Assembly (NCBI GenBank): GCA_022842845.1
Contig: JALHOT010000007.1
Span: 52,824 to 116,823, forward strand
Direction: 5' to 3'
DNA length: 64,000 bases
Origin: Cyclobacteriaceae bacterium
GTDB taxonomy: Bacteria > Bacteroidota > Bacteroidia > Cytophagales > Cyclobacteriaceae
In this document: positions 4,897 to 35,703 of the stretch, in pieces
Layout of the letters: the number at the start of each line of letters is the position of its first letter
Position numbering within the stretch: the stretch's first letter is position 1
Made by a program: the position numbers and the translations under genes
The notes under the pieces: model-generated
Databases searched by the model: none
What the model saw: only the letters and a program-made list of their open reading frames with translations
What the model was told of the DNA's origin: nothing

Positions 4897-5574
4897 ATGA
4901 ATTTGAAAGAATACGCACTCATAGTTGCCGGAGGGAAAGGTACCCGGATGAAAACAAAACTTCCAAAGCAGTTTCTGGAACTCAATGGCCTGCCTGTTTT
5001 GATGCACACCATCAACGCTTTCTATCGTTACAATGAGAAAATAAGCATCATCCTGGTTTTACCTGAAGATGATTTTGAACTGTGGGCTGAGCTCTGCCGC
5101 AAGTATTCTTTCCATAGAAATATCATGTTGCAGAAAGGTGGCGACTCCCGCTTTCAATCTGTGAAGAACGGATTGGGCTGCATCCAAGAACCCGGCCTGG
5201 TGGCTATTCACGATGGGGTTCGTCCGCTTGTGAGTGAAGATATTATAGGCGCCTCCTTCCGCCTGGCCTCCGTGCATGATTCTGCCGTGGCAGCCGTACG
5301 CTTAAAAGAATCTATTCGCATGACTGATCAGGATAATACCAAGGCCATGGATCGCTCCAAGTTTCGTCTGATTCAAACACCTCAAACCTTTAAAACAAAA
5401 CTGATTCAGCAAGCTTACGAAGGAAAAGAAGATGCCAGCCTAACTGATGATGCCAGTGTCGCAGAAAAAGCAGGACATATCATTTCACTTTTCGAGGGCA
5501 GTTATGAGAATATTAAAATCACAACTCCTGAAGATCTTATTGTGGCGAAGGCCTTGTTGGATGCTCGAGGTTAG
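4897..5574 (+). CDS. ispD: 2-C-methyl-D-erythritol 4-phosphate cytidylyltransferase IspD
   Basis: IspD joins CTP and MEP to give CDP-methylerythritol, step three of the non-mevalonate isoprenoid pathway, supplying precursors for menaquinone and undecaprenol. The 225-aa length fits. The nucleotide-binding signature is at the N-terminus (AGGKGTRMKTKLPKQFLEL), followed by VAIHDGVRPLV, the RLIQTPQTF segment and the end motif KITTPEDLIVAKALL. The ATG at 4897 lies directly before the usual start of the family. A repeat-rich stretch follows the stop codon (5583-5650). Confidence 0.95.
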   Translation: MNLKEYALIVAGGKGTRMKTKLPKQFLELNGLPVLMHTINAFYRYNEKISIILVLPEDDFELWAELCRKYSFHRNIMLQKGGDSRFQSVKNGLGCIQEPGLVAIHDGVRPLVSEDIIGASFRLASVHDSAVAAVRLKESIRMTDQDNTKAMDRSKFRLIQTPQTFKTKLIQQAYEGKEDASLTDDASVAEKAGHIISLFEGSYENIKITTPEDLIVAKALLDARG

Positions 5575-5582
5575 AAGCTGGA

Positions 5583-5650
5583 AGCTAGAGGTTCGAAGTT
5601 AGATGTAAGATGTTCGACATAAGACTTTGGACAAACTAGAGGCTCGAGGC
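5583..5650. repeat. Dispersed-type repeat (CTAGAGGTTCGA family) after ispD
   Basis: Two direct copies, 5585-5598 (CTAGAGGTTCGAAG) and 5636-5649 (CTAGAGGCTCGAGG), agree at 12 of 14 positions. They flank a segment with AGATGTAAGATG and GACATAAGAC, which resembles the arms of the recA/argS palindromes. Just before them GAAGCT is repeated (5574-5587). The region is non-coding and looks like a degraded dispersed repeat. Confidence 0.5.
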
Positions 5651-6171: not shown

Positions 6172-7854
6172 ATGGCTGACGAAAAAATTATATTCTCGAT
6201 GACCGGGGTGAACAAAATTTACCCCCCTCAAAAGCAAGTTCTTAAAAATATTTACCTCTCTTTTTTCTACGGTGCCAAAATTGGCGTGCTGGGTCTTAAC
6301 GGATCTGGTAAATCTTCTTTGCTGCGCATCATCGCGGGCATTGATAAGGAATTTCAGGGCGAGGTAGTGTCGGACTTAAGTTTCAGTGTAGGCTTGCTGG
6401 AACAAGAACCTCAGCTAGACAAAAGCAAAACAGTTAAAGAAATTGTTGAGGAAGGTGTGCAGCCTATCATGAACTTGTTAAAGGAGTTCGAAGCCATCAA
6501 CGAAAAATTTGCTGATCCAGCCATCATGGAAGATCCTGATGCGATGGATAAGCTGATCACCCGTCAGGGGGAAGTACAAGAAAAATTAGATGCCATTGGC
6601 GCCTGGGAATTAGACAATAAACTAGAACGTGCGATGGATGCACTGCGTTGTCCTCCGGCAGATTCAAAAGTAGAACACCTGTCTGGTGGTGAGAAAAGGC
6701 GCGTGGCACTTTGCCGCCTGCTGCTACAAGAGCCAGATGTACTGTTGCTCGATGAACCTACCAACCACCTTGATGCAGAATCTGTGTATTGGCTGGAACA
6801 ACACCTGAAGCAATATAAGGGTACCGTTATCGCGGTAACACACGACCGTTACTTCTTAGACAATGTGGCAGGGTGGATTCTGGAGTTGGATCGAGGTGAA
6901 GGTATTCCATGGAAAGGCAACTACTCCTCATGGCTAGAACAAAAACAGAAGCGACTGGCGCAAGAAGAGAAATCAGAGAGCAAACGCCAGAAAGCTTTAG
7001 AGCGTGAATTAGAATGGGTACGCATGAACCCTAAAGGACGCCATGCTAAAGGAAAAGCACGTTTGAATAACTATGAAAAGTTATTAGGACAGGAAGGCCG
7101 TGAGAAGGAAGATAAATTAGAACTATACATCCCACCAGGACCCCGCTTAGGTAACATCGTTATAGAAGCCCATGATGTATCAAAGGCCTATGGCGATAAA
7201 TTACTGTACGAACACCTGAACTTTACTCTTCCACCAGCAGGTATTGTGGGTATTATTGGCCCGAACGGTGCCGGTAAAACCACGCTCTTTAAAATGATTA
7301 CGGGTAAAGAGCAACCAGACGCTGGCACTTTCAAAGTAGGGGAAACAGTTCAGATTGCCTATGTAGACCAGGAGCATGATGATCTGAAGCCAGAGGATAC
7401 TGTTTTCCAAGCCATTACTGGAGGTAACGACCTGATCATGATCGGTGGTAAAGAAATGAATGCTCGGGCTTATGTAGGTAAGTTCAACTTTGGAGGCAAC
7501 GACCAACAAAAAAAGATAAAAGAACTCTCGGGTGGTATGCGCAACCGTGTACACTTGGCCATAGCATTAAAGCAGGGTGGCAACTTATTATTGTTAGATG
7601 AACCTACTAACGATTTAGATGTCAACACGCTGCGTGCGCTGGAAGAAGGTCTTGAAAACTTCGGTGGTTGTGCCGTTATTATCTCTCACGATCGTTGGTT
7701 TCTTGATCGTGTGTGTACACACATCCTTGCCTTTGAAGGCGACTCACAGGTGTTCTGGTATGAAGGCACCTTTAGCGAATACGAAGAGAATAGACGTAAA
7801 CGTCTGGGTGACGAACAGCCGCATAGGATCAAGTATAAGAAACTCGTAAAATAA
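6172..7854 (+). CDS. ettA: Energy-dependent translational throttle protein EttA (ABC-F)
   Basis: EttA is an ABC-F ATPase that binds the ribosomal E site and gates entry into the elongation cycle according to ATP/ADP. The 560-aa length is typical. Two ABC domains are visible: Walker A GLNGSGKSS (near 42), signature LSGGEKRR and Walker B LLLDEPTNHLD; then GPNGAGKTT, signature LSGGMRNR and LLLDEPTNDLD. A charged linker containing ERELEWVRMNPKGRHAKGKAR lies between them, as in EttA. There are no membrane segments. The gene ends at 7854 directly before a TTGACAAT repeat hairpin. Confidence 0.95.
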   Translation: MADEKIIFSMTGVNKIYPPQKQVLKNIYLSFFYGAKIGVLGLNGSGKSSLLRIIAGIDKEFQGEVVSDLSFSVGLLEQEPQLDKSKTVKEIVEEGVQPIMNLLKEFEAINEKFADPAIMEDPDAMDKLITRQGEVQEKLDAIGAWELDNKLERAMDALRCPPADSKVEHLSGGEKRRVALCRLLLQEPDVLLLDEPTNHLDAESVYWLEQHLKQYKGTVIAVTHDRYFLDNVAGWILELDRGEGIPWKGNYSSWLEQKQKRLAQEEKSESKRQKALERELEWVRMNPKGRHAKGKARLNNYEKLLGQEGREKEDKLELYIPPGPRLGNIVIEAHDVSKAYGDKLLYEHLNFTLPPAGIVGIIGPNGAGKTTLFKMITGKEQPDAGTFKVGETVQIAYVDQEHDDLKPEDTVFQAITGGNDLIMIGGKEMNARAYVGKFNFGGNDQQKKIKELSGGMRNRVHLAIALKQGGNLLLLDEPTNDLDVNTLRALEEGLENFGGCAVIISHDRWFLDRVCTHILAFEGDSQVFWYEGTFSEYEENRRKRLGDEQPHRIKYKKLVK

Positions 7855-7925
7855 AATTGACAATAGGCAATTGACAATGCACAATTCATTCATTGTCAAT
7901 TGTCAATTGGAAACTGTCAATTGTT
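7855..7925. repeat. Solo TTGACAAT/ATTGTCAA repeat hairpin after ettA
   Basis: Starting at the base after the ettA stop, units of AATTGACAAT occur in both orientations. The core is a perfect 12-bp stem CAATTGACAATG (7868-7879) and CATTGTCAATTG (7891-7902) with an 11-base loop; further TGTCAATTG units follow to 7923. It contains no gene and ends three bases before the next start codon. The same unit forms the ends of the four-helix-bundle element at 33762-34187, so this looks like a gene-less member of that family. Confidence 0.8.
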
Positions 7926-32542: not shown

Positions 32543-33754
32543 TTAGCGATCTACTTCGCCCATCACCACATCTAAAGAACCAACAATGGCAATTAAGTCT
32601 GCAATTAAAACGCCTCTGGAAATTTCGGGGAGCACAGAGAGATTAACAAAACTAGGACCTCTTGCTTTACAGCGCAGGGGCTTGTCGCTTCTGCCGTCAG
32701 ATCTAAAGAAGAAGCCTAATTCACCTTTGGGATTTTCAGCACGAACATAAACATCTTGCGCTTGTGGGCGAATCTTTTTGGGCACTAATGCCTGAGGGTC
32801 AAATTCTTTCGTTCGCTTATGTTCTGTTGTGAGTTTTTCTAAACATTGCTCGATAATTTTGACCGATTGATAAACTTCTTGCATCCTAACCCAGGTGCGG
32901 TCCCAGCAATCTCCAACGGTACCCATTTTTCCTTCACCAATTGGGATATCGAACTCCAACTCAGGATAAACAGAATAGGCATCAACCTTGCGTAAATCAA
33001 AACGTAAACCAGATGCGCGCAACATAGGACCTGTTACTCCATAATTGATGGCCAGATCGCGTGGCAGAACACCTACATTGGCAGTGCGTTCGATAAATAT
33101 TTTATTGTCAATCAGGATTTCATCCAGCTCCTTCAGTTTGGGCTTCAGGTAAATGATAAACTCTTTACAACGGTCTTCAAAGCCTACAGGCAAATCATAA
33201 AAGAGGCCGCCAATCCACATGTAGTTATAAAGCAAACGAGAACCACTTGCCCACTCCAGTAAACGCAGGATATGTTCTCGGTCGCGCATCACCCAAAAGA
33301 ATGGCGTGAAGGCACCGATATCCATACCATAAGTACCGATGGCAATAAAGTGTGAAGCAATTCTGTTAAGTTCTGCTACCAGCACCCGAATGTATTCAAT
33401 GCGTTTTGGAATTTGTTCAGTGATTCCTAGCATCTTCTCTACACCCATTACATAGGCATGTTCAGAATTCATGGAGGCCACATAATCCATTCGATCTACA
33501 AAAGGAATAATCTGGTTGTAAGGAAGATTCTCCGCATGCTTTTCGAAGCAGCGATGCAGATAACCAATGTGCGGAACAACTTCTTTAATGATTTCACCAT
33601 CAGATAACACCTCCAAACGCAATACGCCATGAGTAGATGGATGCTGCGGCCCAAGGTTGATAATCATTTCCTCCGAACGCAATTCTCCCTCTTTGAACTT
33701 TCCAGGTTCAGAGTTGAGAAGGGCTTGGGTTGTATCTAAAGACTTATGTTTCAA
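32543..33754 (-). CDS. nuoD: NADH-quinone oxidoreductase subunit D
   Basis: 49-kDa-type subunit lining the quinone site of complex I on the cytoplasmic side. 403 aa if translation starts at TTG 33754; the only upstream in-frame codons before a TAG are two, so no ATG is available there. The first internal ATG (33667) starts just at [18 protein letters not shown], the conserved core. Landmarks: [21 protein letters not shown], and the C-terminus DVVMGEVDR. The gene is separated from nuoC by the four-helix-bundle element, which may have removed the original start. Confidence 0.94.
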
Positions 33755-33761
33755 GTTCTAA

Positions 33762-34187
33762 AATTGACAATTGACAATTGACAGTGTACAATGGATAATT
33801 ATAGTTTGGATTTTGTTGTTTTGATCGATGCTGTTACAATGCGAATTAATTCATTACAATTTTCTAATAATAATTTCCCTTCATCAATAGCAATTAAATC
33901 AGAATCTATCATGAGTCGAAGCCAGTATTGAGATTCGTTTGCTTCTTTATTAGCAATGGAGAGTTTGTGAATAAAATCGGCTTTTGATTCTGCCTGGTTT
34001 GCTTCTTCAGTCAATGCGCCAATTGCGGTGCCACTTCTTAAAAGCTGCTTTGACAAAATGAATTCTCTTTTATCAACCTGAAGTTTTTGACAAAGTCTTA
34101 CCACTTTTAAAGCAAATTGATAACTTTTTGTCTTTAAAACGTTCTCTCCTTTTACAATTGTCAATTGTTCATTGTCCATTCTCAATT
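33762..34187 (-). mobile_element. IVS-like element: inverted repeats around a four-helix-bundle gene
   Basis: A 426-bp unit between nuoC and nuoD. Its ends, 33762-33783 and 34166-34187, are inverted copies agreeing at 18 of 22 positions and made of TTGACAAT-like units. A further perfect complement lies just inside (CAATTGACAATTG type, 34154-34166 against 33767-33782), so the transcript ends could pair into a long stem with the gene in the loop. The only gene is the S23/IVS-type protein at 33799-34179. There is no transposase. The right end overlaps the nuoC stop codon; the left end stops eight bases before the nuoD TTG start. I saw no clear target duplication. Confidence 0.65.
33799..34179 (-). 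CDS. Four-helix-bundle protein (23S rRNA intervening-sequence / S23 family)
   Basis: 126 aa from the ATG at 34179, eight bases after the nuoC stop (34188-34186). The family is recognised by KSYQFALKVVRLCQKL, the middle block LSKQLLRSGTAIGALTEEA, then KADFIHKLSIANKEANESQYWLRLM and a C-terminal helix NELIRIVTASIK; four amphipathic helices in all. Relatives are encoded in intervening sequences of 23S rRNA genes, and the fold is shared with Avd of diversity-generating retroelements; their biochemical role is unsettled. The first ten residues (MDNEQLTIVK) are encoded by the inverted repeat, so the gene and its ends belong together. Confidence 0.88.
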   Translation of the reverse strand: MDNEQLTIVKGENVLKTKSYQFALKVVRLCQKLQVDKREFILSKQLLRSGTAIGALTEEANQAESKADFIHKLSIANKEANESQYWLRLMIDSDLIAIDEGKLLLENCNELIRIVTASIKTTKSKL

Positions 34188-34680
34188 ATGATCTCTTCTC
34201 TTCGTACTTAACAGTCACACCATTATACTCCTCCTGAGTTTGATAGTCCTTTCGTAAAGGATAACCTTCCCAATCCGAAGGCATCAGTATTCTTCGTAAA
34301 TCAGGATGACCTTTAAATACAATACCATACATATCAAATGCTTCACGCTCTTGCCAATCAGCTGATCTCCAAACAGAAATAACTGAGTCAATTTCGGGAT
34401 TCTCTCTTGACAAAGTTACCTTCAACATTAAATGCTGATTGAAAGGAATGGAGTAGAGGTTATAAATCACTTCCATCGTATTAGCCTCTTTACCATTATC
34501 CAAACCTGTGATGCAGGAAAGCATATCGAAGTAGAAAGAAGGATGTGTGCTTAATGCCTGAGAAACTTCTATAATTTTATCTCGATCGATAATCATTGAA
34601 ACAGGAGTAGCAGATTGATTTATCTGTGGTGCCTGCCTGATGATAGGCGTGAGCAATTCTGCAAGTAACGTTTCATTCAT
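34186..34680 (-). CDS. nuoC: NADH-quinone oxidoreductase subunit C
   Basis: 30-kDa-type subunit of the peripheral arm of complex I, 164 aa. Conserved end: [21 protein letters not shown] then [12 protein letters not shown], diagnostic for NuoC. It overlaps nuoB by 4 bp (ATGA), so translation is coupled. The TAA stop consists of one base outside plus AA of the inverted repeat of the neighbouring element, so the C-terminal residues may have changed on insertion. No fusion to NuoD, unlike in enterobacteria. Confidence 0.94.
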
Positions 34681-35237
34681 GACTTGCCATTTAGTTTATC
34701 TGCAATGAGTGCTTCTTTGCTTATTTTTTCTCTTAACTGCAAAATACCACCTATCAAGGCCTCAGGCCTTGGCGGGCAACCTGGTACATAAACATCCACG
34801 GGTATTATCTTATCTACTCCTTTCACTACATGGTAACCATGTTGCCAGTATGGGCCGCCACAATTAGCACAAGAACCCATCGAAATAACATAACGAGGTT
34901 CAGCCATTTGTTCATACAAGCGCTTAATCCTATCGGCCATTTTAAACACGACTGTTCCGGCAATGATCATTACATCTGCCTGGCGAGGAGAGGCACGTGG
35001 GGCCATGCCAAATCGATCCATGTCGTAAGGCGTTGTACCGGTACTCATAAATTCCATGGCGCAACAAGCCAAACCGAAAGTCATGGGAAACATGGATGAT
35101 AGTCTTGACCAATTCAACAAATCATCGAGCTTGGTAATGATGACACCGGCATTGCCCAATGATTCTTGATAGATGGGCACTTCTTTACCAACTTCACTGG
35201 CTAAATGACTGAAACTATTTTGTTTTATATCGCTCAT
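34677..35237 (-). CDS. nuoB: NADH-quinone oxidoreductase subunit B
   Basis: PSST-type subunit that carries the [4Fe-4S] cluster N2 next to the quinone site, 186 aa. The cluster ligands are seen in [21 protein letters not shown] and [11 protein letters not shown]. The gene starts inside the end of nuoA (23-bp overlap) and ends overlapping nuoC by 4 bp, which shows a tight operon nuoA-B-C before the inserted element. Confidence 0.96.
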
Positions 35238-35703
35238 TGATTTGATCGTATAAATGTGAGGGCACAGGTGATTTAAACTCAGAGATGTTTTGCTTCTCTG
35301 CTGCCCAATTAAAATATCCTTTTACCCAGGCATAGACCAGCCCCACCACTAAAATGAGCACAAAGGTTAGTACTTCAAATAAAGTAAACCAAGACCATGT
35401 TCCGTTACTTTGATTCACCAACTCCTGATTAGAAAAAACGGTAGTCCAGGGGAAAAGAAAAATTAACTCGACCTCAAACAACAGAAAGAGGATAGCCACC
35501 ACGTAAAATCGAATATTGAATTGCGGCCAGGCAGAGGCTATGGCCTGCTCACCACTTTCATAAGTGGCCAGCTTTTCAGCATTAGGTCTGTGTGGACGAA
35601 GGATTTTAGAGACTAGTAATGTAATAGTCAAAAAGAGTATGCCGCCAATAATAAATAGCAGCACAATGGAGAACTGACTTAAATATGCTTGCGTATTATC
35701 CAT
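35215..35703 (-). CDS. nuoA: NADH-quinone oxidoreductase subunit A
   Basis: 162 aa with three membrane helices (about 10-33, 70-90 and 108-130). The conserved loop [36 protein letters not shown] is the NuoA signature (quoted in outline only: YESGEQ, then [13 protein letters not shown]). First gene of nuoA-B-C-D. The remaining complex I genes (nuoE-N) are not downstream of nuoD, where nnr follows, so the complex is encoded in at least two places. Confidence 0.95.

Follow-up and report, generated by a model that had tools for sequence, protein, structure and literature searches.

A four-helix-bundle gene between inverted heptamer arrays in a nuo operon of Cyclobacteriaceae: one copy of a widespread and putatively mobile cassette

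The window, i.e. the whole stretch of 64,000 nucleotides that was analysed, carries on its minus strand a nuo operon in which nuoA, nuoB and nuoC overlap and a single insert precedes nuoD, as a preliminary description of this DNA had stated and as the ORF coordinates bear out. The names nuoC and nuoD come from NCBIfam hits, while two further ORFs are taken, from reading, to be nuoA and nuoB. In the direction of transcription the operon contains:

35215-35703, minus strand: presumed nuoA, overlapping nuoB
34677-35237, minus strand: presumed nuoB, overlapping nuoA and nuoC
34186-34680, minus strand: nuoC, the gene upstream of the IVP gene, with its stop codon (34186-34188) within an arm
34153-34187, minus strand: 5′ arm in gene direction, a 7-nt array with units like AATTGAC, AATGGAC and AATGAAC
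33799-34185, minus strand: IVP gene (23S_rRNA_IVP / four helix bundle protein), 128 aa, PF05635/TIGR02436
33762-33803, minus strand: 3′ arm, an inverted 7-nt array of GTCAATT units
32543-33754, minus strand: nuoD, the operon gene downstream of the IVP gene

The IVP gene is the sole ORF of the insert, which holds neither a second gene nor a transposase, and its assignment to the S23/IVS family was correct: the product matches PF05635 (E 7.1e-23, 81.3 bits) and TIGR02436 (98.6 bits) above their cut-offs of 33.8 (curated) and 24 bits, respectively, and among solved structures its sole sequence match at E <0.01 is 2rld, a five-chain entry. The start codon is TTG, the in-frame ATG being codon 3. 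The 5′ arm starts in the nuoC stop codon and extends into the first eleven codons of the IVP gene; the 3′ arm stops 7 nt ahead of the annotated nuoD start. The unit had been delimited at 33762-34187 (426 bp), with ends (33762-33783 and 34166-34187) agreeing at 18 of 22 positions and coding for N-terminal residues of the protein, and all of this stands, the agreement of the ends having been compared by eye and the inner arm corresponding to about eleven codons. In a repeat search a longer pairing appears, of 33769-33803 with 34153-34187, 35 nt long and 80% complementary, along with several alternative registers that are due to the tandem 7-nt build of both ends. TRF gives period 7 for 33762-33783 (100% matches) and for 34155-34187 (80% matches). 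The end-to-end score is 35, a value reached by only 0.8% of end pairs swapped among 32 IVP loci. The observation made at nuoC-nuoD is confirmed, and the ends of the insert, being complementary, could fold into a stem, as could those of the intervening sequences (IVS) of 23S rRNA.

The insert belongs to a class with many copies. The genome of the window (G000) has four PF05635 genes, all behind the stop codon of a co-directional upstream gene and each with inverted arrays of its own (TTAGACG; GAAGCTC/GAGGTTA; AATTGAC; the 8-mer ATTTGAAG), and of 59 relatives 47 have the family, which was not found in any of the 14 control genomes. A first set of 90 distinct IVP genes from the relatives and G000 yielded 86 usable loci, four being dropped for short flanks. 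The own-arm score averages 32.2, against 17.7 (sd 3.4) when arms are swapped between genes and at most 20.06 in 10,000 permuted means; with 133 other ORFs of the same loci as the control (mean 18.5, 95% point 27.2), 55 of the 86 IVP genes lie above the 95% point and 31 below it. Own arms rank among the top 5% of swaps in 68 of the 86 loci and are outright best, by row and column, in 32. Matches at lags of 7, 14 and 21 reach about 0.36, 0.34 and 0.33, compared with 0.28 in shuffles, lag 8 being slightly raised and the remaining lags not. A second set, the best 80 of 581 relatives in a one-peptide scan of named genomes (76 usable, four dropped), also has period 7, with scores of 37.0 for own arms, 20.4 for swapped arms and at most 23.8 for permutations, and 59 of the 76 loci above 27.2. 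It includes 13 loci outside Bacteroidota (Treponema, two Chloroflexota records, ANME-1, Omnitrophota, Nitrospirales, Limnohabitans, Opitutae, Alphaproteobacteria, Fibrobacter, Syntrophobacterales, Ignavibacteria and Balneolaceae), 11 of which exceed 27.2, again with period 7; many of these are metagenome bins, whose taxon labels may be wrong.

How the ends are alike is a matter of design rather than of sequence. A search for ends of the TTGACAAT type around other members of the family had been proposed: inverted ends do recur, and the TTGACAAT sequence is not common to the other copies, i.e. the search fails in letter while the design recurs, because the arms of each copy match each other and not those of other copies. 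A 5′ unit is readable in 108 of 157 elements (a set that leaves out five further named loci), and 80 distinct units are found among the 108. Some IVP copies of congeners or of one genome share units, and arms can be at background similarity although the proteins, at unrelated places, are 61-68% identical. Even within one operon site own arms exceed swapped ones, with 32.2 against 18.7 across 12 genomes at one site and 35.4 against 18.9 across nine genomes at another; both arms thus differ jointly at a junction that is itself unchanged. Recognition of the ends by their sequence was rejected, the similarities of proteins and flanks being weakly correlated (Mantel 0.09, a value that includes host sequence common to shared sites; 6 of 1000 permutations were as high). 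A common motif in the unit was likewise discarded, there being at most a weak AG core: the motif fit is above the shuffled maximum for the 3′ ends (165.2 versus 160.2) and below it for the 5′ ends (161.5 versus 166.9).

A co-oriented upstream ORF ends within 400 nt of 78 of the 86 IVP genes, and 46 of the 51 strong-armed elements with such an ORF begin within -17 to +30 nt of its stop. Both neighbours are co-oriented at 71 of the 86 IVP genes. Small ORFs taken as controls have such neighbours in 68 of 157 cases (p 1.6e-9). This sense bias could equally be due to an RNA step or to selection.

Seven junctions were examined side by side in G000 and its four congeners, G001 to G004. As sufB was not found in G002, 34 junctions result, with an IVP gene in 15, a gene-less array in six, a remnant in one and neither in 12, the last three classes being assigned by eye on the sequences. 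The junction names nuoC/nuoD, thiolase, fadE, dnaJ, scoA, sufB, mraZ, rsmH, metH and metF derive from NCBIfam; grpE, scoB and sufC are presumed from reading. The empty-site comparison proposed for nuoC/nuoD finds the IVP gene absent in three of the four congeners: it is present in G002, as in G000; G004, the nearest relative of G000 by NuoD (92%), has a solo gene-less array; G001 and G003 have a short array-free gap. At grpE/dnaJ G001 and G003 have a gap of 25-27 nt where G000 has a cassette, and at scoA/scoB the empty junction of G003 reads AGA-TAA; the G000 array takes the place of this stop codon and lengthens the ORF by two codons. Arms score 30-44 in 14 of the 15 congeneric copies (32 in the thiolase copy of G003), the G002 nuo arms being judged by eye only. 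No target-site duplication was seen at the 34 congeneric and ten gene-less junctions, where the arrays hide any short duplication, and neither excision nor an enzyme for cutting and joining was seen in this analysis.

The sufB/sufC cassettes of G001 and G003 are 93% identical in DNA, with arms alike and a dS of 0.34, whereas at thiolase/fadE the cassettes of the same genomes are 74% identical (in a forced alignment), with arms at background and a dS of 2.37, between flanks that are 93% and 95% identical. There the arms of G001 are like those of G000, and those of G003 like those of G004; arms of the TTGATGG type occur at this junction in G003, G004, G041 and G045 and not in five other genomes, and TTGATG stands, as judged by eye, behind the G001 stop as if it were a remnant of the other arm type. 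The protein tree joins G000 with G001 (support 90) and places G003, G004, G041 and G045 in one group (94). The AU test does not reject a species-like grouping at thiolase/fadE (p 0.147 and 0.152, with about 105 columns), and a proof of replacement from trees was dropped, none of the three p values (0.147, 0.152 and 0.266) leading to rejection; because the test rejects nothing, it is the dS contrast and the arms that carry the case for replacement. Taken together, filled, empty and swapped junctions would represent events of insertion and replacement.

Residence at the junctions is long. Mapped on the tree of 90 genes, the labels for operon site (12 sites, 49 genes) change 18 times, against at least 29 times in 200 shuffles, and IVP lineages have therefore long been resident at their junctions; IVP-bearing clusters of upstream genes extend over 12 genomes in one case and nine in another. 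Purifying selection acts on the gene, with a dN/dS of 0.10 at sufB/sufC, and the nuoC/nuoD copies of G000 and G002 differ with pN 0.20 and pS 0.86, most other IVP pairs being saturated at synonymous sites.

Arrays of the same kind are also found with one arm or with no gene, and two such arrays lie in the window:

7855-7911, no strand assigned: gene-less palindromic array of the AATTGAC unit family, right behind the stop of ORF 6172-7854
5558-5600, plus strand: one-armed array of GAGGTTA/GAAGCTA units, giving ORF 4897-5574 its last codons and stop

The former scores 32 as an inverted repeat, where the best of 100 shuffles reaches 21, and has lag-7 matches of 0.63, and at its junction G004 has a palindrome of the GTTGTTG type instead. 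The units of the latter, which ends an ORF that we take from reading to be ispD, resemble the ends of the IVP cassette at G000 C1. Heptamer arrays number 18 in 800 kb from seven genomes with IVP genes and one in 800 kb from six without (21 versus four and nine versus two at other thresholds), the samples of three of the seven containing none; for periods other than 7 there is no such contrast. Across the five congeners the whole-genome unit counts track the resident cassettes, with 37, 80 and 84 matches of the AATTGAC type in G000, G002 and G004 and five and three in G001 and G003, and with 27, 42 and 41 of the ATTTGAAG type against five and 18, a contrast that is weak evidence, coming from two clades and with a high G002 control for the AATTGAC pattern (50 versus 80). 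One control with a reversed pattern was discarded, the reversed pattern being the same unit rotated. Gene-less arrays keep to gene ends: 18 of 20 in G004, hand-picked from pattern-match lists, lie within 60 nt of the stop of a long ORF, as do 199 of 2100 random positions, and some one-armed or gene-less arrays sit between convergent ORFs. When 13 of the G004 gene-less sites were sought in G000, ten were found, four with the same unit, three (7855-7911 included) with a palindrome of another unit, one with a terminator-like hairpin and two ambiguous; the three palindromes score 27, 32 and 22, and the highest values among their shuffles are 20, 21 and 17, respectively.

At L036 (G000 C9:85653) and L423 (in G004) a palindromic array apparently codes for the signal-peptide-like N-terminus of the downstream ORF, and appears as if taken into use. 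At L037 (G000 C8:119478) a short in-frame AATTGAC array lies inside a long ORF, presumably an aminoacyl-tRNA synthetase as named from reading.

Inverted ends are not peculiar to IVP genes, because loci of GxxExxY and GIY-YIG genes have them too. GxxExxY genes (PF13366, PDDEXK_3), often multi-copy, stand between private inverted repeats (L137-L166, L387-L406). In a first sample 15 of 27 usable loci, and in a second 15 of 19, lie above the 95% point of the controls (three of 30 and one of 20 having been dropped). Their repeats are spaced at about 8-10 nt, and the sense bias is weaker, the neighbours on both sides being co-oriented in 14 of 27. A period of 9 nt as the fingerprint of this family was abandoned, being present in the 27 loci and not in the 19 further ones, in which lag 9 does not differ from lags 8 and 10. 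GIY-YIG genes, considered as a further cargo, were rejected for having no period; their ends are palindromic or duplicated in seven of 27 loci (three of 30 dropped, two for long ORFs and one for a short flank), and the mean for the family, 24.9, still exceeds the permutations (at most 21.7). At L174, L177, L185, L190 and L195 non-periodic repeats, palindromic or duplicated and REP-like, lie on both sides of small GIY-YIG genes.

The reading that we favour, and consider somewhat probable, is that the nuo insert is a copy of a widespread IVP cassette, which likely spreads and is replaced as a single piece of DNA where genes end, and whose protein likely acts on the hairpin-forming ends. That gene and ends form one unit, as had been proposed, is borne out. 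The inverted 7-nt arrays and the IVP gene would spread and be replaced together, with the 3′ ends of genes as target, and recognition of the ends would depend on symmetry and spacing, not on sequence; the predicted oligomeric four-helix-bundle protein would probably act on the arms. This last role is a guess from the constant presence of the gene and from the S23 protein, a known pentamer according to the accessible part of PMC4990558. Symmetry of the arms would be kept or remade in DNA, e.g. by hairpin copying, and gene-less palindromes would be derivatives mobilised in trans. The promoterless IVP gene would be read through from the host operon, a dependence that would favour sense copies. 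The cassettes are, in short, probably mobile. A wider version, possible and put forward tentatively, would make IVP cassettes and gene-less palindromes one kind of mobile DNA, with ends set by mirror symmetry and a 7-nt beat and not by sequence; insertion behind a stop would make or overwrite both arms, the end sequence being remade on site, and the 23S rRNA IVS would be a special case borne by rRNA.

Three rival explanations were considered. Were the insert an IVS acting at the RNA level, its arms would pair in the operon mRNA, RNase III would likely free the IVP message and selection for the RNA stem would keep the arms complementary. Indeed, both the minimum-energy and the centroid fold of the sense RNA have the arms paired as their terminal stem, RNase III may cut such stems, cassettes lie in sense in their operons, the 5′ arms are G-rich (G 511, C 167; G exceeds C in 48 of 55 arms), and an IVS with an S23 ORF excised by RNase III is on record in the accessible text of PMC4990558. 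We nevertheless think this unlikely. Stability of the whole-element RNA was rejected as support, the fold having a z of -1.02 and being matched by 15 of 100 shuffles, and there are one-armed and gene-less arrays, some of them between convergent ORFs. Moreover, selection for a stem in the sense RNA should give more G-U than A-C mismatches in the arms, and strict alignments count 102 and 114, respectively, equal numbers from which the symmetry looks to be made or kept at the DNA level; lenient alignments (A-C 1777 above G-U 1400) extend far past the arms and were kept out of the argument. The RNA-level mechanism considered in the preliminary description is, in the light of these folds and counts, unsupported.

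More improbable still is an old operon gene, i.e. an IVP gene long at fixed junctions, inherited vertically and frequently lost, with arms serving as regulatory hairpins of the operon. It would explain the clustering of site labels, the upstream-gene clusters in 12 and nine genomes, the purifying selection and the nuoC/nuoD array of G004, which resembles one G000 arm, as after a loss. Against it stand the dS values of 0.34 and 2.37 within one pair of genomes, the second with other arms, the privacy of the arms even within one site and the gene-less arrays with cassette units at many other junctions. The preliminary description would have accepted such an old gene if relatives were all filled and repeats absent from other family members; this is not what is found, although a part of the case holds, IVP lineages persisting at the same operon junctions across genera. 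The explanation to which we give least credence, as quite improbable, needs no element: arrays would grow by slippage behind stops, quasi-palindrome correction would make them symmetrical and IVP genes would merely be among them. One-armed and gene-less arrays are indeed common, and palindrome-free heptamer arrays are on record (accessible text of PMC4679880), but paired arms and period 7 recur at IVP genes across phyla, arrays are scarce in sampled genomes that lack IVP genes, and empty sites between the same genes measure 25-27 nt. As a whole, the interpretation from which this analysis started is partly supported, the likeness in design to the 23S rRNA IVS (an IVP gene between complementary ends) being borne out.

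The IVS of rRNA have been known for decades. If they are one form of a class that also occupies operon junctions from Bacteroidota to the ANME-1 archaeal record, the origin, spread and upkeep of IVS would become testable in ordinary operons, and the class would explain the multi-copy genes for ‘four helix bundle protein’, the IVP genes of cas loci and some heptamer arrays behind genes.

Among known systems, MITEs and REP/REPIN sequences are many-copy short palindromes near gene ends, likely mobilised in trans, with conserved ends. The present elements are also short, multi-copy and palindromic near gene ends, but end repeats conserved between copies, the mark of IS elements and MITEs, are not found (80 distinct units in 108), the ends mostly varying by copy and being alike in symmetry and period only. 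To our knowledge, ends that pair within a copy and mostly differ between copies fit no class of transposon. The fold of Avd, which in diversity-generating retroelements accompanies a reverse transcriptase and a template repeat, is presumably related to that of IVP. In the accessible text of the literature searched, no link between operon-borne IVP genes and inverted heptamer ends was found.

TAACTGA heptamer arrays are described from Beggiatoaceae, Cyanobacteria and Bacteroidetes in the accessible part of PMC4679880, as intergenic arrays mostly right before start codons, one set being directly behind a stop codon. They resemble the present arrays in being intergenic with 7-nt units; they differ in being a single fixed heptamer in direct repeats (with one inverted set), the units here being AATTGAC, TTAGACG and others, and the words S23, intervening and four helix have no occurrences in that text. 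In the cas loci of PMC3936711, as far as the account is accessible, 18 IVP genes are treated as CRISPR-associated functions; these, too, lie inside operons of protein genes, with repeats unmentioned in the accessible account, and may be operon insertions of the cassette kind.

The closest system is the IVS of 23S rRNA, which shares the IVP-family gene between complementary ends and the patchy distribution; removal by RNase III, with no religation, is one of the marks of such IVS. That of Coxiella, according to the accessible text of PMC4990558, where the function and origin of IVS are stated to be unclear, has an S23 ORF, a 28-bp terminal stem and three GACAGAT heptamers, and is excised by RNase III; its heptamers, tandem at the 5′ end upstream of the ORF and varying in number by strain, recall the 7-nt arrays described here. 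The nuo cassette differs in lying behind a stop codon in a protein operon, outside any rRNA gene, and the cassettes in general in arms that bear no mark of RNA selection, in units that vary between copies and in being accompanied by scattered gene-less palindromes.
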